Shown: piece by piece, positions 13,823 to 24,089 of the stretch | Layout of the letters: each line of letters begins with the position of its first letter | Position numbering within the stretch: position 1 is the stretch's first letter | Origin: Exiguobacterium acetylicum | GTDB lineage: Bacteria > Bacillota > Bacilli > Exiguobacteriales > Exiguobacteriaceae | Assembly (NCBI RefSeq): GCF_022170825.1 | Contig: NZ_CP081878.1 | Span: 770,001-834,000, forward strand | DNA: 64,000 nt | Reading direction: 5' to 3' | Notes under the pieces: generated by a model | Seen by the model: only the letters and a program-made list of their open reading frames with translations | The model's database searches: none | What the model was told of the DNA's origin: nothing | Program-made: the position numbers and the translations under genes

Positions 13823-14200
13823 ATGGCACGCATTTTATTAGCGGAAGACGAAGATGTCTTACGAATGTTGGTACTCGATACACTAGAAGATGAAGGATAT
13901 ACGATTGATGAAGCGACTGACGGAGACGAGGCGTATCAAAAGATCATGAACGCAGAGTACGACCTCGTTTTGCTCGATTATATGATGCCTGGGATGACAG
14001 GAATTGAAGTCATCGAGAAAGTGCGACAACATCCGGATAAGCAACATTTGAAAATCATGATGCTGACGGCTAAGAGCCAACAATCAGATCGAGAACGGGC
14101 AGAAGAAATTGGTGCGAACTATTTCTTCTCAAAGCCATTTAGTCCTCTAGAACTGATTGATGTCGTGGGAGGAATACTGAGTGATCACCAAGTGGATTAA
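13823..14200 (+). CDS. Receiver-only response regulator
   Basis: 125-aa CheY-like domain with no output domain: acidic residues D9/E10, phospho-acceptor D52 (VLLDYMMPG), T in MLTAK, and K in FSKPFSPLEL. Such proteins act by protein contact or as phosphorelay intermediates. It overlaps the kinase gene by 20 bases, so the kinase is its probable partner. TTGGGAGG precedes the ATG. Not clearly CheY or Spo0F by sequence, and no chemotaxis genes are nearby. Confidence 0.9.
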   Translation: MARILLAEDEDVLRMLVLDTLEDEGYTIDEATDGDEAYQKIMNAEYDLVLLDYMMPGMTGIEVIEKVRQHPDKQHLKIMMLTAKSQQSDRERAEEIGANYFFSKPFSPLELIDVVGGILSDHQVD

Positions 14201-16724
14201 TCGAAAAATCGGACGCCAACTCATGGCATCCTTTTATGTCGTATTAGCTACATTGATGATTTCATCATTGATCGTCTACAACTATACCGATACGAAATTG
14301 CAGGCGACACGAGCGAAATTAGAAGATATTCGTGATCGAAGTGCACGTGCCGGTGCTTTATGGGAAGAATGGCAGGATGTCCAGTTCAACATGCGTGGAT
14401 ACGCCTTGATGGGAAATGGAGAATTGTACAATCAAGTCATGGCCCAACAAGACAAGATTGATCAACAGACAGAATGGTTCGAAAAAAATGCTATCTACGA
14501 TCAAGGAAAGGCATTCGCCCAGTCCTCGAGAGAATTGTATGAGTATTATTTCGATGCTATCTTGCCGCTGATTCAATCCTATGTCCAAGCGAAAGAGTCA
14601 GGAGACGTCACAGAATCCTTCTTAAAAGGAACAACGCTTGCTGATTTACCGCTCGGTCAGCAATTATTAGCTGAAGGTCAGATTCAGTTAGATGCTCAAG
14701 GAAATATTGATGTACTGTCAGAAATCAATAAAAGTGAGTTAGCGCTTGGTGGCTATCGTGAATTTTTAGAAGATTGGGCACAGCGGACGAGTGACCAGTT
14801 GGAGCGAGAAATCCGGACAACGCAGCTGATTTGGTTAGCGAACATCGTCGTTTTGCTTGCCGTCTTGATTTTCTTTATCTATCCGTTCATTCGCCGGATT
14901 ACGATGGAGTTGCTATCTCTCGTCAAAAATAGTCAACGACTTGCAAATGGTGAGGATGTTTCGAGCGTAAAGGTGCCAAATCGTAAAGATGAAATCGGTA
15001 TTCTCGCGTTATCCTTTAATCAAATGGCAAGTTCAATTTCTGAGAACAAACAACACTTATTAGCGAAAAATGAAGAATTACAGGCACAACAGGAAGAACT
15101 ACAGGCCCAGCAAGAAGAACTTCAAGCCCAGCAAGAAGAGCTCGAAGAAGCACTCGAGCTGACGATGCGCAATGAGCAACATCTCCAGTATCGTAATGAT
15201 TTGACGGAGACATTAGCGGCACGTGAATCGTTGACCGCCTATCCTGAAATCATCGAGAAGCTCGTTACGATCACGGATTCGGAGATCGGTGCATTAGTGT
15301 TCGTGGATGAAGAAGATAGTTATTCTGTCGTCACTTACGGGATGACGGATGAACTGGCAGAGCAGTTGCTCCAAAATGATGCGTCACTGCTAAAACGAGC
15401 CGAATCGCTTAAGACACCAGTTCATTCTTCTAAACAAGTCGCAAGCAATCATCCATTACCGTATCCGTACTATATGTACGAAACGGCTGTGCCGATTCTC
15501 GATCCAACGGCAGATGATATCATCGCGTACATCTACTTAGTTCGTTACCGCGATCAGTTCACGAACGAACAGATGCGTGATGTCATGTCCTTCTCCCGTC
15601 AATTATCGCTATCGCTTCTACGGATGCGATTGTTTGACGAGATGACGAAAGAAAAGGCGAAGACGGAGCGAATTCTCGATTCGATTCGAGAGGCCGTCAT
15701 CTATCTTGAACCGGGTAAAGAAGAGGTCTTCGTCAATCGACCATTATACGACTTATTCCCGGAATTACGCTTTGGTGTTCAAACTGAACAGGAGACATTG
15801 CAAACGTGCTTAGAAGTCATTCGATCCGTCGTCGATGAACCGGAAGTCTTCAGTCGATACGTTGATTCAGTTCTGCGTGGAGAATTACCGACGGATAGTT
15901 TACAGTTTTCGATTCGAAACGAAACGGTATTCATTCAATTTTATGTCGAGGTGATCCAGATCCATCACGTGCATAAAGGAACGATGCTCGTCATGCGTGA
16001 TGTGACGAAAGAGACGGAAATGGATCGCTTAAAATCAGAACTTGTTTCAACCGTATCGCATGAACTTCGGACACCACTCTCCTCGATTTACGGTTTTACA
16101 GAGCTCATGCTCAATCGAGATATCGAAGAGTCGCGCCAAGACCGATATTTACGAACGATTCATTCTGAGACGGAACGTCTTGCGAATCTCGTCAACGATT
16201 TCTTAGACGTTCAGCGCATGGAGTCAGGGACACAATCATATAAAAAAGCATCCGTGAACATCTATACGATTGCTGAAGAAACGACACAGTTTTATGCAGC
16301 TTCGACACAGGCCCATCAGATTACATTCCGTCACGAGGGAAATCAGTTACCTATCATTGAAGCAGATGAAGAAAAAATTAGACAGTTGCTCAATAATTTA
16401 TTGAATAATGCGGTGAAATATTCACCATCTGGCGGTGCGATCGATGTCGTACTGACGACATCACTTGATCAAGTCATTCTTCAAGTTCGAGATGAGGGAA
16501 TCGGGATTCCAGAACAATCGCTCAGTCGTCTTTTTGAAAAATTCTACCGCGTTGATAATTCGGATAGTCGGAAGATTGGTGGTACCGGTCTAGGTCTAGC
16601 CATCTGTAAGGAAATCGTCACCGGTCATGGTGGAGACATTCACGTGGAATCGGTCGTCAGGGAAGGTAGTCTCTTCACTGTCAAATTTCCACTTGTCCAG
16701 TCTACACATGTGACAATCTCCTGA
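14181..16724 (+). CDS. Multidomain sensor histidine kinase
   Basis: 847 aa. TM1 at about residues 15-34, a helical extracellular region of about 180 aa that resembles CHASE3-type sensors, TM2 at about 215-235, HAMP, a coiled coil made of ELQAQQE heptads (about 299-320), a GAF-like domain (about 340-480), a PAS-like segment (about 490-600), HisKA with H627 in STVSHELRTPLS, and HATPase with NNLLNNAVKYSP and GGTGLGLAICKEIV. The GTG start has GGGAGG 8 nt upstream and overlaps the receiver gene. Signal unknown. An early catch-all sensor for stress is possible, but I cannot name the ligand. Confidence 0.92.
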   Translation: MITKWINRKIGRQLMASFYVVLATLMISSLIVYNYTDTKLQATRAKLEDIRDRSARAGALWEEWQDVQFNMRGYALMGNGELYNQVMAQQDKIDQQTEWFEKNAIYDQGKAFAQSSRELYEYYFDAILPLIQSYVQAKESGDVTESFLKGTTLADLPLGQQLLAEGQIQLDAQGNIDVLSEINKSELALGGYREFLEDWAQRTSDQLEREIRTTQLIWLANIVVLLAVLIFFIYPFIRRITMELLSLVKNSQRLANGEDVSSVKVPNRKDEIGILALSFNQMASSISENKQHLLAKNEELQAQQEELQAQQEELQAQQEELEEALELTMRNEQHLQYRNDLTETLAARESLTAYPEIIEKLVTITDSEIGALVFVDEEDSYSVVTYGMTDELAEQLLQNDASLLKRAESLKTPVHSSKQVASNHPLPYPYYMYETAVPILDPTADDIIAYIYLVRYRDQFTNEQMRDVMSFSRQLSLSLLRMRLFDEMTKEKAKTERILDSIREAVIYLEPGKEEVFVNRPLYDLFPELRFGVQTEQETLQTCLEVIRSVVDEPEVFSRYVDSVLRGELPTDSLQFSIRNETVFIQFYVEVIQIHHVHKGTMLVMRDVTKETEMDRLKSELVSTVSHELRTPLSSIYGFTELMLNRDIEESRQDRYLRTIHSETERLANLVNDFLDVQRMESGTQSYKKASVNIYTIAEETTQFYAASTQAHQITFRHEGNQLPIIEADEEKIRQLLNNLLNNAVKYSPSGGAIDVVLTTSLDQVILQVRDEGIGIPEQSLSRLFEKFYRVDNSDSRKIGGTGLGLAICKEIVTGHGGDIHVESVVREGSLFTVKFPLVQSTHVTIS
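15075..15137 (+). repeat. Three tandem 21-bp repeats coding ELQAQQE
   Basis: Three consecutive in-frame copies of a 21-bp unit, with a partial fourth, code heptads of a coiled coil between the HAMP and GAF regions. Codons vary at third positions (tta, cta, ctt for Leu), so the repeat is old or under protein-level selection. Copy number could vary between strains by slippage. Confidence 0.85.
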
Positions 16725-19924: not shown

Positions 19925-21402
19925 AGATAGGATTCGTAGGAGCGGGTGTTGGAACGTTGCATGCAGCACTTTTGCTGACGTCACGACACCCTGGAGTGGA
20001 GATTACGATTTTTGAAAAAGAATCACGCGTCGGTGGACGATTACAATCCGTCGATTTTGAATCGGGTGGACGAATCGATGAAGGACCGACGATCGTCTTA
20101 ATGCCAGGTAAGTTAAAAGAGCAATTGGCAGAAGCAGGTGTGACAGGAGTAGAACTTGAGCGGGTCGATCCACTATATGATCTTCATTTTGACGATGGTA
20201 CCGTTGTTACGAAAGTAGCCGATATCGTGGATCAAGCGATCGCGATTGAACGTCAATTCGGTGAAGGTCGTGGATTTTATGAATTCATGCATCAAAAAGA
20301 AAAGGATTATGAGACGAGTGTATCGAAATTTTTAGAACGCGGATATCATCGTAAAACGGAGTTGTTGCATCCAGAAATGATGCGTCCATTATTACAGATG
20401 CATGCTTTAGAGACTGCACATGAACATTTGAAGCGTTATTTCAAAAGTAAATATTTACGGATGGCATATAGCTTCCCGACATTCTATATCGGTGGGAACC
20501 CCTATACGACACCATCAATCTATGGTTTAATTCCGTACCGGGAACAAGCAGAAGGTGTCTGGTATGTAAAAGGCGGCTATTTTTCGCTTGCTGAGCGTAT
20601 GCGTGACACGTTGATCGAGCGCGGTGTTCGATTCGTGTTTGAAGCACCAGTCGAACGAATCGTCGTCGATCGAGGACAGGCAAAGGAAATCGTCTTACAA
20701 AATGGGACGCATGAAGCATTCGATCAAATCGTACTAAACGGTGAGTTTCCATTGATGGAACGTCTTGTGGAAGGTAAAAAACCAAAAACGTATGCTCCTT
20801 CAGGCGGAACGCTATTGCTGTATTTCAAAATGAAGGGGAAAGTCGATTTACCGGTGCATCGATTCTTGATGCCAAATGATTTAGAACCCCTCATGACAAA
20901 CATCTTTAAAAAAGGACGTTTACCAGATCATCCGGCAGTATACCTATTCCATCCGAGTCAGATTGACTCTAGTTTGACAGGGACTGAGGATAGCGTCGTC
21001 TACTCATTGATACCTTCTCCGCGTGGTTACGGTGTAGAAGATTATGAAAATGTTGGCTTCATCGAGACTGTACTTGAAAAAATTGAGCATCATCATCCGG
21101 GATTCCGGGAAAAGATACAAGAAATGAAAATTCGTACACCGAATGATGCGCAGGCCTTTGGATTATACCAAGGAGGTAGTTTTGGGATTGCTCCGACGAT
21201 TCGTCAATCGGCTGCCTTAAAGACACAAGCAAAACCGTATCCTGATATTGATCGACTGTATGCCGTTGGTGCATCGGTACACCCGTGTGGAGGGGTACCA
21301 GTCGTCATGATGGGCGCAACGATACTCGTAGACCGAATGGAACAAGAGATGGGGTGGAAACATGAATTCAGTGACGATCCAGAACGCGTATATCAAATGT
21401 GA
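19921..21402 (+). CDS. CrtI/CrtN-family carotenoid desaturase (copy 2)
   Basis: 493 aa, second copy coupled to the first by a 4-base overlap. N-terminal FAD motif IGFVGAGVGTLHAALLL (the second glycine region is slightly unusual: GVGTLH where GxGGL is typical), then FEKESRVGGRLQSV and DEGPTIVLMP. C-terminal motif LYAVGASVHPCGGVPVVMMGA, where PCGG replaces the common PGGG/PGSG. A YIGGNPYTTPSIYGLIPY segment resembles CrtN. May share or divide the desaturation steps with copy 1, possibly as a heterodimer. Function beyond the family is inferred. Confidence 0.83.
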   Translation: MKIGFVGAGVGTLHAALLLTSRHPGVEITIFEKESRVGGRLQSVDFESGGRIDEGPTIVLMPGKLKEQLAEAGVTGVELERVDPLYDLHFDDGTVVTKVADIVDQAIAIERQFGEGRGFYEFMHQKEKDYETSVSKFLERGYHRKTELLHPEMMRPLLQMHALETAHEHLKRYFKSKYLRMAYSFPTFYIGGNPYTTPSIYGLIPYREQAEGVWYVKGGYFSLAERMRDTLIERGVRFVFEAPVERIVVDRGQAKEIVLQNGTHEAFDQIVLNGEFPLMERLVEGKKPKTYAPSGGTLLLYFKMKGKVDLPVHRFLMPNDLEPLMTNIFKKGRLPDHPAVYLFHPSQIDSSLTGTEDSVVYSLIPSPRGYGVEDYENVGFIETVLEKIEHHHPGFREKIQEMKIRTPNDAQAFGLYQGGSFGIAPTIRQSAALKTQAKPYPDIDRLYAVGASVHPCGGVPVVMMGATILVDRMEQEMGWKHEFSDDPERVYQM

Positions 21403-22195
21403 GGAAGTCATTCAGTCCGGATCTAAGACGTTCTATAAAGCCTTTTCACTCTTACCAAAAGCAGATCGACAAGCGGTTTATGCCATCTATACATTTTGCC
21501 GATTCCTCGACGATACCGTCGATGAATCGGAGACACCAAAAGAAAGCTTGATGGCTTTCTTAGATGAATTCAAACGTTTCCGTGATGGAGAAGTACTCGA
21601 TAAGCCATTGTGGATCGCGTTAGCAGATGTGTTTGAACGCTATGAAATGGATGAGACGCCGTTCCTCGAACTTGCGGAAGGCATGCGTTGGGATATCGAG
21701 AAGAATCGCTATCAGACGCTCGAAGAGACGGAGCAATACAGCTATTACGTAGCGAGTACCGTCGGTTTGATGTTATTACCGATTCTTGCGCCGCAACAAC
21801 CAGATCTTCGAAAATCTGCGATTGATCTTGGAATTGCGATGCAACTGACGAATATTTTACGTGATGTCGGTGAAGATGCCAAACGTGGTCGTATCTACTT
21901 ACCACATTCTTGGATGGAAACGTACGGTGTCACATCGGAATCGTTACTCGCGGGTCATCCTTCGGGAGACTTCATTGGACTCTGGGAAGAGGTCGCACTT
22001 CGAGCGGAGCATCTGTACGATGCTGCGATTCCATCGTTTGAACGATATCCACGTGAGAGCCGGCGTGCTTTAAAAGCTGCTGCATTCCTATATCGCGGCA
22101 TTCTTGATGCAGCGCGGGACAATCACTATGATGTCTTTACGAAACGTGCTTATGTCAGCCGTTGGCAAAAAATGAAGTTACTCGCAACGATTTAA
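21362..22195 (+). CDS. crtM: 4,4'-diapophytoene (dehydrosqualene) synthase
   Basis: Condenses two farnesyl diphosphates to the C30 carotenoid precursor. 277 aa, the usual length. Both Asp-rich Mg sites are visible: DDTVDE (about residues 50-55) and DVGEDAKRGRIYLP (from about 168), with TNILRD between. It overlaps the upstream desaturase by 41 bases; ATG 21362 has GGGGTGG just upstream and leaves the conserved N-terminus intact. Last gene of the plus arm. A C40 phytoene synthase cannot be excluded by sequence alone, but the CrtN/CrtP-type partners favour C30. Confidence 0.88.
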   Translation: MNSVTIQNAYIKCEEVIQSGSKTFYKAFSLLPKADRQAVYAIYTFCRFLDDTVDESETPKESLMAFLDEFKRFRDGEVLDKPLWIALADVFERYEMDETPFLELAEGMRWDIEKNRYQTLEETEQYSYYVASTVGLMLLPILAPQQPDLRKSAIDLGIAMQLTNILRDVGEDAKRGRIYLPHSWMETYGVTSESLLAGHPSGDFIGLWEEVALRAEHLYDAAIPSFERYPRESRRALKAAAFLYRGILDAARDNHYDVFTKRAYVSRWQKMKLLATI

Positions 22196-22199
22196 TATC

Positions 22200-22251
22200 A
22201 GACCATAGAAAAAAGACCTCGGCGGGGACCAAGGTCTTTTTTCTATGGTCT
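22200..22251. terminator. 20-bp perfect bidirectional terminator between the two crt arms
   Basis: Left arm 22200-22219 and right arm 22232-22251 are perfectly complementary over 20 bp, including a six-A/six-T block. It can terminate crtM on plus. On minus it would end the candidate small RNA or the crtP-like transcript. The minus-strand loop contains UCCCCG, the motif found in the loops of the neighbouring hairpins. Confidence 0.9.
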
Positions 22252-22554
22252 GAGACCGGGGAGTCTCAGATTACTTCTACACCAGAGCGAACATCTAGAC
22301 TACGAGATAGGTCTGTTTCGACCACGGGGATGGTCTTTTCTTTATCGAGCTATCTGTGGTCCATTCGGATGAGACGATCTAAGGGGGAACGTCGTAAGTC
22401 ATGCGAATGGACACACGATGAGTCACGTGATGAAATGGGTGGGTCCCATTTGATTCCGCTGGTTAGAAAAAGTAAGTTCTTAAACGCTCTTGACTCGGGG
22501 AAGTCACCTTGCGCTTGATTGAGGATGTGGGGTCAATCACTACCTCTTGAACTC
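22200..22554 (-). ncRNA. Candidate small RNA with repeated C-rich hairpin loops
   Basis: Non-coding stretch with no plausible gene. Read on minus: stem-loops TGATTGA/TCAATCA (22539-22516, loop with CCCC); TGACT-UCCCCG-AGTCA (22506-22491); AAATGGG/CCCATTT (22451-22433, loop ACCCA); CCATTCG/CGAATGG (22410-22361) enclosing a loop with UUCCCCCUU; GACCA-UCCCCG-TGGTC (22335-22320); TCTGAGAC-UCCCCG-GTCTCAGA (22270-22249); then the 20-bp terminator. Stems differ but loops repeat, a sign of selection on RNA structure. Candidate promoter: TTGTAC (22589-22584), 17 bp, TGA-TACGAT (22566-22561). It could alternatively be the 3' UTR of the crtP-like gene, or, on plus, an array of GGGGA loops. The 5' end is approximate. 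Confidence 0.6.
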
Positions 22555-22560
22555 GAAGTA

Positions 22561-22589
22561 ATCGTATCAAATCTTAGTTGTCCGTACAA
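22561..22589 (-). promoter_or_regulatory. Candidate promoter of the hairpin RNA
   Basis: Minus strand TTGTAC, spacer of 17, TACGAT with TGA extension. Hexamers are only partial matches to consensus; spacing and extended -10 are correct. Confidence 0.4.
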
Positions 22590-22616
22590 GTGATTGATAT
22601 GCAATTCACATAACGT

Positions 22617-24089
22617 TCACAGGGTAGCAGCGACAGCAGATACAATTCGTTCACTTGCTAGTTTTCCTGAAAGCGTCACCATTGGGCTACCGCCACCAGG
22701 ATGCGTCGATCCACCGGCAAAAAACAAATTGTGTACATTCTTTGAACGGTTGCTAGGACGGAGGAAAGACGAGCGTATGCCATTGGAAGACAAGCCATAT
22801 AAAGAACCGTGATAAGCAAAGAAGGTTTGTTCGATATCCTGTGGTGTGACACGTTGTTCGAAGACGACATCAGACGAAATATCAATTCCAAATGACTGGA
22901 GTCGTTGATTGATGAGTTGGTCATACGTATCAAAATCAATCGCATTTCCAGTATCCGTTGCCGGCGCATTGACGAGTACGAATAAATTGTCACCCGCTTG
23001 TCCCATTTCCGGTGCTGTAACAGAAGAATTTGAAATATAGATCGTCGGTTCCTCCGCGTAACGTTTTTCATCAAATAGTGCCTTGAACTCTGCTTCATAA
23101 TCAGAAGAGAAGAAGACGTTATGATGGGCGAGTCCTTCGATACGCCGCGAAAGACCAATACAGCGGACGTAAGCAGAAATCGAAGGTTCGACTTGTGCAG
23201 GTGTTGGGTTTTTAAAGTCCGGTCGTACGGTTTCTGAGATGAGACGCGGATATTGTGTCAACAAATCACCATTCATGACGACAAAATCAACAGGTAGATA
23301 CTCTAAATGATTCAATTCAATTTCCGTTGCTTGTCCATCGACGACTTCGATCTGCGTCACCTCATCTCCGAGTCGGAAGACGACGCCGAGTTCTTTTGCA
23401 CGTCGGGCGAACCCTTCTGCGATTGCTGTATTGCCGCCGTTCGTGAAATAAACACCATCGTTCAGCTCTAAATGAGCGATTAAACTGAAAGTAGCTGGCG
23501 TTTGATATGGACTACTACCGATATACGTAGCGTAACGATCAAGGGCTTGAATCAACCCTTTGTCCCTAAAATAATGTTTATGAAGGCTATGGAGACTCTG
23601 AAATGGATGCACTTTCAACATGTCTCGCCAAAGAGAAGGGCGGACAAACGAATCGATATTCGTAAAGAATTGTCGTTTCGCGATCGTATGCAACTTTGAC
23701 ACTTCCTCTTGATAACCTGTAATATCGTTTTTCGCCAACTGACCGTTTGTAAAGCGATCTACTTCCGTTCGCATCGCTTCGCGTCCAGACGAAAAAGTTA
23801 AGGTGCGTCCGTCTGAAAAGTGATTGACCGTATGGCGCTCGAGTTTCGTAAACGTAAAGTATTCATCGGGATCCGCGCCAGATTCGAGGATGACCGACTG
23901 AAAGACTTCCGGCATTGTAATCGTGTTCGGACCAAAATCGAACCGGTGTCCTTCCGTAACGATTGGCATCATCTTGCCACCAATATGTGTATTGCGCTCG
24001 ATGACCGTAACGCGGAACCCTTTTGCTGCTAATGAAATGGCAGCACTGAGCCCACCGAGACCGGCTCCGATGACAGCGATATGTTTCAT
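22617..24089 (-). CDS. crtP: CrtP/CrtNb-like C30 carotenoid oxidase
   Basis: 490-aa FAD enzyme of the CrtI family. The N-terminal motif is IAVIGAGLGGLSAAISLA, then ERNTHIGGKM and FDFGPNTITMP. Segments YIGSSPYQTPATFSL, LAHHNVFFSSDY, PTIYISNSS and HPGGGSPMVTLSGKLAS resemble S. aureus CrtP (diaponeurosporene oxidase) more than CrtN. It would oxidise a terminal methyl group of the C30 chain toward aldehyde or acid. AAGGAGG lies 10 nt before the ATG. First part of a minus-strand arm read after the glycosyltransferase gene (16-base gap). The precise oxidation product is inferred. Confidence 0.75.
   Translation of the reverse strand: MKHIAVIGAGLGGLSAAISLAAKGFRVTVIERNTHIGGKMMPIVTEGHRFDFGPNTITMPEVFQSVILESGADPDEYFTFTKLERHTVNHFSDGRTLTFSSGREAMRTEVDRFTNGQLAKNDITGYQEEVSKLHTIAKRQFFTNIDSFVRPSLWRDMLKVHPFQSLHSLHKHYFRDKGLIQALDRYATYIGSSPYQTPATFSLIAHLELNDGVYFTNGGNTAIAEGFARRAKELGVVFRLGDEVTQIEVVDGQATEIELNHLEYLPVDFVVMNGDLLTQYPRLISETVRPDFKNPTPAQVEPSISAYVRCIGLSRRIEGLAHHNVFFSSDYEAEFKALFDEKRYAEEPTIYISNSSVTAPEMGQAGDNLFVLVNAPATDTGNAIDFDTYDQLINQRLQSFGIDISSDVVFEQRVTPQDIEQTFFAYHGSLYGLSSNGIRSSFLRPSNRSKNVHNLFFAGGSTHPGGGSPMVTLSGKLASERIVSAVAATL

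Follow-up and report, generated by a model that had tools for sequence, protein, structure and literature searches.

The terminator hairpin of Staphylococcus aureus RNAIII has a C-rich loop, LhrC of Listeria, an RNA shorter than the one of about 350 nt described here, contacts the Shine-Dalgarno (SD) sequence, and FsrA and IsrR are likewise C-rich, FsrA being iron-sparing as IsrR is. According to the available part of PMC2837412, C-rich loops of RNAIII bind coa mRNA at its ribosome-binding site and at a loop within the coding sequence, and further S. aureus RNAs carry an unpaired UCCC signature. The two-component systems ResDE in B. subtilis and SrrAB in S. aureus control the C-rich RNAs RoxS and RsaE, respectively; RoxS depends on ResD and has a conserved 8-nt element around −65 and four C-rich regions, and sucCD is a target common to both (PMC4409812, available part). 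LhrC possesses UCCC motifs and is controlled by the LisRK two-component system (PMC4132741, in part), and IsrR acts against iron-containing, TCA-related proteins (PMC11257911, in part).

Between two convergent carotenoid genes of Exiguobacterium acetylicum we found what is apparently an undescribed, lineage-wide structured RNA of the minus strand. Coordinates refer to the window, the whole 64,000-nt stretch of DNA that was analysed, which comes from genome G000. In the ORF list of the window, the interval 22196-22616 is the gap between the two genes. We take both flanking genes to be carotenoid (crt) genes, and the first 300 residues of the CrtN/CrtI-like product match Pfam Amino_oxidase/NAD_binding_8. 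The locus contains the following features.

21362-22195, plus strand: CrtM/CrtB-like coding sequence (ORF list), convergent neighbour, outside the RNA
22617-24089, minus strand: CrtN/CrtI-like coding sequence (ORF list), upstream neighbour, outside the RNA, stop codon at 22617
22605-22621, minus strand: direct repeat TGTGAA-CGTTA-TGTGAA with an 11-bp period, overlapping the crt stop codon
22561-22589, minus strand: promoter-like TTGTAC-N17-TACGAT
22209-22557, minus strand: RNA of about 350 nt with a conserved 5' block, a terminator and inferred ends; covariance model R1 matches at 22208-22557 (G000:C1:792208-792557:−)

The initial annotation had proposed a transcript of this length; the conserved 5' end lies near 22557, a few bases past the limit it had drawn.

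Rfam 15 at gathering scores gave no match in the 64-kb window, in line with the earlier remark that no described family with this exact repeat was known to its author, and a permissive search of the window returned matches at chance level only (lowest E = 1.3, His_leader, 18.7 of 49 bits). The RsaE/RoxS model (RF01820) did not match in the window. In the one genome searched, that of the window, its best score was 40.2 bits, short of the 79-bit cut-off, at another place (C2:155354); this stretch lacks UCCC and was judged a chance match, not a true RsaE. Likenesses to RsaE/RoxS, as far as the available part of PMC4409812 describes them, are C-rich SD-pairing regions, redox two-component control (proposed here) and sucCD as a target (a candidate here). 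The new RNA does have a C-rich loop that is complementary to the ribosome-binding sites of sucC and sucD. The RsaE/RoxS model, however, has 112 positions, in contrast to the greater length of the new RNA, whose multibranched scaffold presents six or seven loops. RNAIII is the closest known system in build: in both RNAs several hairpins, the terminator included, have C-rich loops. Unlike RNAIII, which encodes delta-haemolysin, the new RNA has no coding region, no Rfam match and another gene neighbourhood. LhrC resembles it in UCCC motifs and in two-component control, proposed for the new RNA (PMC4132741, in part), but is multicopy, whereas the new RNA has one strong full-length copy per genome. 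The new RNA is therefore not a member of RsaE, RNAIII or LhrC, because the score is not reached, there is no coding region and there is one copy, respectively. Like FsrA and IsrR, it would be aimed at TCA-related proteins; however, the FsrA model scores at chance level in the window (15.4 bits against 80, E 1.4), and the new RNA has no Fur-like element kept across both genera. The best reading is a new sRNA family specific to this lineage, resembling RNAIII in build and RoxS in function. Of the literature on small and noncoding RNAs of Exiguobacterium, PMC10837837 and PMC4247613 give predicted sRNA counts and, in the parts covered, do not describe this RNA.

The elements of the predicted fold are listed below.

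22471-22557, minus strand: 5' domain (RNAalifold), closing helix GAGUUC/GAACUU enclosing two hairpins; source of model R2
22521-22546, minus strand: SL1, loop AUUGACCCC, predicted fold
22491-22506, minus strand: SL2, UGACU-UCCCCG-AGUCA (DNA stem TGACT/AGTCA)
22433-22451, minus strand: SL3, ACCC loop, two-sided changes at 3/4 consensus pairs
22373-22393, minus strand: SL4, GACG-UUCCCCCUUAGAU-CGUC, proposed main target-pairing loop
22320-22335, minus strand: SL5, GACCA-UCCCCG-UGGUC (DNA stem GACCA/TGGTC), stem variable, loop constant
22249-22270, minus strand: SL6, UCUGAGAC-UCCCCG-GUCUCAGA (DNA stem TCTGAGAC/GTCTCAGA), two-sided changes at 3/8 pairs
22200-22251, minus strand: SL7, the terminator, loop UCCCCG, long A/U-flanked stem, in this genus able to act both ways

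Three hairpins with unrelated stems, and the terminator in addition, had been noted to share one hexaloop, and this was borne out. On the minus strand UCCCCG is common to four hairpins with unrelated stems of at least 5 bp (SL2, SL5, SL6 and SL7), whereas the maximum for any one hexaloop in 5000 dinucleotide shuffles (stem 5) was two, and 0/5000 reached four. Three more C-loop hairpins reported at the same time are present too, with loops CCCC (22529-22532), CCC (in 22433-22451) and CCCCC (22383-22387). The terminator stem, given then as 20 bp, is actually longer. The C runs of all seven loops are predicted to be unpaired (mean p 0.75-1.0).

The locus was found by DNA search in 19/19 genomes of the genus Exiguobacterium, and a search with the most diverged genus copy matched 0/19 genomes of the sister genus. 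By contrast, the covariance model R1, built from 16 distinct genus sequences, detected one strong full-length copy in each of 38/38 Exiguobacteraceae genomes, the whole order sample examined, with E-values of 1e-15 to 1e-22 in the sister genus. Model R2, covering only the 5' domain, recovers the same locus in all 38, with weak scores in some (E as high as 0.022 in the sister genus). With stricter filters, a search of 398 genomes of the class returned no full-length R1 match in the 360 Bacilli genomes outside the family; these filters also missed three of the 38 family genomes (G019-G021) that were detected under looser ones. Matches to terminator-sized pieces in 7/360 non-family genomes (22.7-27.3 bits) were judged to be generic terminators and not a wider spread. 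Extra R1 matches within the family are fragmentary or low-scoring; most are the palindromic terminator reversed (G003, G012, 31-36 bits), and neither a 65-base piece in G035 (31.8 bits) nor a 13.8-bit match in G021 was judged a second copy. When a pattern bracketing SL4 was searched against contigs representing 84,980 species, one genome each, all 25 matching records came from Exiguobacterium. Both crt genes flank the RNA in all six genomes with flanks listed (G000, G005, G018, G020, G023, G028). A mobile or repeated element was rejected: the sole second DNA match in the window's own genome is the terminator of the RNA read backwards, and the crt flanks are constant in those six genomes.

Alignments of the two genera were examined for compensatory change. 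In the alignment of this genus (A2, 16 sequences) 98.6% of cells pair and two-sided changes occur at 12/71 pairs; the corresponding values for the sister genus (A5, 19 sequences) are 99.5% and 9/103. The covariation score exceeded 500/500 shuffles and all slid controls, which were clearly lower, in both alignments; both consensus structures were predicted from the alignments being tested, and related sequences can outscore shuffles through kinship alone, even when unstructured. Further pair types in A2 were no more numerous than in shuffles, 400/500 of which reached the same count. The helices of the 5' domain in this genus rest on prediction, because the sequence there hardly varies. SL5 has a two-sided change at one of its four consensus pairs, and the remaining three are broken in a single sequence (L020), because its loop, one C longer, shifts the alignment.

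Between the genera, stems covary or are swapped and the C loops are retained. SL2 becomes GGCU-UCCCCG-AGCC with its loop unchanged, SL3 becomes CGAG-UUUCCCCA-CUCG and SL4 becomes GAUG-UUCCCCCUUAGUC-CAUC. SL6 is replaced by an unlike 12-bp stem with loop UUCCCCG, the terminator reads UUUUGG-UCCCCCG-CCAAAA followed by U7-8 without an A-tract, and another hairpin takes the place of SL1. The SL4 loop, the largest, contains UUCCCCCUUAG in 38/38 loci. Six or seven hairpins bearing loops of CCCC or longer were counted in 35/35 distinct RNAs, and a sister-genus RNA (L081) has a fold z of −10.17, its MFE and centroid structures being alike. The initial annotation had read constant loops on changing stems as selection on RNA, and had named a covariance search and loss of loop identity in relatives as tests. 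The reading is upheld by C loops that are kept while stems change with compensation in the 35 distinct sequences; the RNA itself is present in all 38 genomes. A conserved sense ORF (at least 15 codons with an SD-like stretch) was found in none of these sequences, and isolated ones in 4/35; a dual-function, peptide-coding RNA was rejected on this absence.

The strand was addressed by fold and terminators. The MFE z of the whole region, from shuffle comparison, is −8.68 on the minus strand versus −3.67 on the plus strand. In 15/19 sister-genus loci, L081 among them, the opposite strand has its own terminator-like site ahead of the RNA. Together with the missing A-tract of the sister-genus terminator, these sites favour the minus strand, as had been suggested from the single sequence. 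We accord next to no probability to the opposite proposal, also raised there, of a plus-strand sponge for CsrA/RsmA with GGGGA loops: CGGGGA loops do occur on the plus strand of the window, but in this genus a two-way terminator separates the hairpins from the plus-strand crt gene, separate terminator-like sites precede them in the sister genus, and the plus fold is the weaker. RsmY/Z and CsrB/C carry GGA loops on the transcribed strand, whereas the inferred transcribed strand has CCCC loops here. The terminator scan of the window did not list the minus-strand terminator, we judge because the U run is absorbed into its long stem; the scan of L081 does list it. From terminator anatomy, the nearly invariant upstream block described below and the lack of a conserved sense ORF, it is most likely that a minus-strand RNA without coding function is produced.

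A promoter TTGTAC-17-TACGAT had been assigned upstream. Both hexamers are identical in 19/19 genus loci; they agree with only 7/12 sigma-70 consensus positions, and the promoter scan of the window does not list them. The scan of L020 lists neither promoter nor terminator, and that of L081 lists TCGACA-17-TATCAT (10/12) at the corresponding place. The block of about 60 nt between the crt stop codon and the RNA is nearly invariant in 19/19 genus loci. This block, with its promoter-like hexamers, bears on an alternative in which the RNA would be no more than a structured 3' UTR belonging to the crt operon upstream, with a cis effect on stability and possibly with processing into an sRNA. The RNA does follow directly after the crt stop codon on the same strand, and no minus-strand terminator is listed between them, by a scan that also misses SL7. 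Against this, the block is nearly invariant, the spacing of the direct repeat is preserved in the sister genus and loop identity has no obvious explanation in cis; we regard a mere 3' UTR as very unlikely. Over the −35 region, some sister-genus genomes (L081 at 1466-1479, and others) have a perfect 14-bp palindrome, ACTTGTCGACAAGT, at whose position this genus reads ACTTGT-ACGG-ACAACT; a second regulator, perhaps a repressor, may possibly bind there.

The direct repeat is present as TGTGAA-N5-TGTGAA in 19/19 loci of this genus (one with a single spacer base changed) and as TWTGAA-CATTT-TGTGAA in 19/19 of the sister genus, so that a TGTGAA-type repeat occurs in 38/38 overall. The shared RNA start, (T/A)TCGAGTTCAA, is 47 nt away in all 19 genus loci; in the sister genus the spacing is 48 nt in 18 loci and 47 in one. 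The repeat thus lies at about −48 to −67, a position that depends on the inferred start. It is likely to be a site for an OmpR-family response regulator, for which we propose ResD; no published ResD consensus to match it was found in the literature searched. A resABCDE operon exists in this genome (ResB by Pfam, the others by gene order), where we take ResA, ResC, ResD and ResE to be what their order and character suggest. The repeat pattern occurs at 15 places in five genomes versus three for a reversed control, four of the 15 being the RNA itself; the repeat of the RNA in G028 (TATGAA) falls outside the pattern. TKTGAA-N5-TGTGAA lies upstream of what we take to be pta, a CoA-disulfide reductase-like gene and a cytochrome c-like gene beside an rpoD-like gene (L123, L131, L133), and these might possibly form a redox regulon. 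One further place lies upstream of a presumed alanine-symporter-like gene, and the rest are inside genes or beside unrelated ones. These places support ResD control weakly.

Candidate targets were sought through SD pairing. The SL4 loop UUCCCCCUUAG is complementary to the SD variant TAAGGGGGA. In five genomes of both genera, TAAGGGGGA-N4-12-ATG occurs at 22-40 places per genome versus 6-10 for the reversed pattern. This GGGGG-type SD is frequent in Exiguobacteraceae, as judged from the five genomes, and matches the anti-SD less well than the full consensus does. Both sucC and sucD are TAAGGGGGA genes in all five, and TAAGGGGGA precedes both in 30/30 genomes read, out of 38 with sucC. The idea of SD pairing, first drawn from known UCCC-loop RNAs, gains sucCD as a candidate target because the SL4 loop is complementary to these SD sequences. 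A second GGGG lies just upstream in sucC, giving the tandem AAAGGGG-NN-TAAGGGGGA.

Other TAAGGGGGA genes in G000 are icd, 2-oxoacid dehydrogenase E2, ETF-alpha-like, atpC, CoxB-like and one that we take, from a generic family match, to be NDH-2-like. The test set comprises 33 genes in G000 (one place without an ORF and one self-match excluded), 21 of 22 places in G028 and 22 of 23 non-self places in G023; the genes of G018 and G005 were read in part, and among genes read etfA appears in four of five genomes. As a control, genes with TAAGGAGGA were used (54 in G000, leaving out three contig 2 places, and 36 of 43 places in G028). Proteins were compared as their first 300 residues at most, with mixed NCBIfam and Pfam labels for the test set and Pfam labels for the control; 4/33 test genes (L137, L185, L186, L197) and 10/54 control genes had no family match. 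TCA, 2-oxoacid, respiratory and ATP-synthase functions, classes chosen post hoc, make up 8/33 test genes against 1/54 control genes in G000 (p = 0.0015), or 7/33 against 1/54 when the NDH-2-like gene is left out (p = 0.004). With sucCD counted once and a control flavodoxin counted as respiratory, p is 0.012 with and 0.048 without that gene. Sharing between genera (G000 and G028) was not above control, with three orthologues for TAAGGGGGA (33 and 21 genes read) against six for TAAGGAGGA (54 and 36). SD variants thus appear to be conserved in general, because the control is shared no less.

Predicted duplexes, in which loop constraint is ignored and the anti-SD is the sequence as we presume it to be, amount to −17.0 to −20.4 kcal/mol for SL4 with the sucC and sucD sites versus −10.2 to −10.9 for the anti-SD. 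With a GGAGG site both are at about −11, and the full consensus SD favours the anti-SD (−19.3 versus −9.0 for SL4). Target choice is weakly constrained, because UCCC loops fit almost any G-rich SD.

Two other kinds of RNA would present C-rich loops. An iron-sparing sRNA of the FsrA/IsrR type, controlled by Fur and keeping iron-rich enzymes of the TCA cycle and of respiration from being translated, fits a C-rich, SD-pairing RNA whose candidates include TCA, respiratory, catalase and (as we take it to be) SodA genes. In the sister genus TGATAAYATCRT, which resembles part of a Fur box, lies over the −10. That element is not retained in this genus, which has TGATACGAT, whereas the TGTGAA-type repeat is kept in both, and the leading targets sucC, sucD, etfA and atpC presumably do not encode iron proteins; we consider this explanation improbable. 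Equally improbable is a protein sponge or scaffold whose U-CCCC-G loops titrate an RNA-binding protein, such as one with a KH domain, much as RsmY and RsmZ titrate CsrA through GGA loops. Its architecture would be that seen here, with six or seven loops that resemble one another while their stems are unrelated, and with a loop uniformity in excess of what antisense pairing needs. However, SL4 retains a long target-like loop beyond CCCC, complementarity to the sucC and sucD sites holds in all 30 genomes read, and we know of no protein with U-CCCC-G loop specificity.

From sequence, then, this lineage-wide C-rich RNA most likely regulates central metabolism by blocking SD sequences. As a full mechanism we think it probable, though well short of certain, that this is a trans-acting sRNA with its own minus-strand promoter and terminator and with ResD-type induction, whose C loops block G-rich SD sequences of sucC, sucD and other TCA and respiratory genes. 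It would be transcribed from that promoter and ended by that terminator, and its multibranched scaffold would present six or seven hairpin loops with CCC to CCCCC. These loops would pair with G-rich SD sequences and so block ribosome entry, the SL4 loop fitting TAAGGGGGA sites best and sucC and sucD, with other TCA-cycle and respiratory genes, being the leading targets. A ResD-type response regulator would probably induce the RNA upon respiration failure, and the RNA may fill the job that RsaE/RoxS has in staphylococci and Bacillus through an RNAIII-like multi-loop build. More tentatively, and with considerable doubt on our part, an undescribed family could have taken over the RsaE/RoxS role in Exiguobacteraceae multivalently, with like loops gripping several GGGG tracts of one leader, or several mRNAs, and with GGGGG SD sequences marking the regulon. 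A multivalent grip on one leader is invited by the tandem G tracts of sucC.

The locus provides a highly structured bacterial RNA without an Rfam match, found from raw sequence, in all genomes of the order examined. If the proposed mechanism is true, the use of a C-rich sRNA to shut down succinyl-CoA synthetase evolved two times, on scaffolds unrelated to each other, and the logic of an SD-variant regulon becomes testable, genes with GGGGG instead of GGAGG being readable as a target list. The many like loops also offer a clean system for why some sRNAs bear redundant seed loops. The sucC leader is apparently only about 30 nt, and an element that we take to be cre-like, AGACAGCGCTTYCA, lies just upstream of its −10 (TACAAT) (L165-L169); catabolite control and the RNA could thus act on the same leader. 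Elsewhere in the window, an ORF that we take to be sensor-kinase-like (14181-16724, plus strand) contains tandem QAQQEEL coiled-coil repeats (QEELQAQQEELQAQQEEL).
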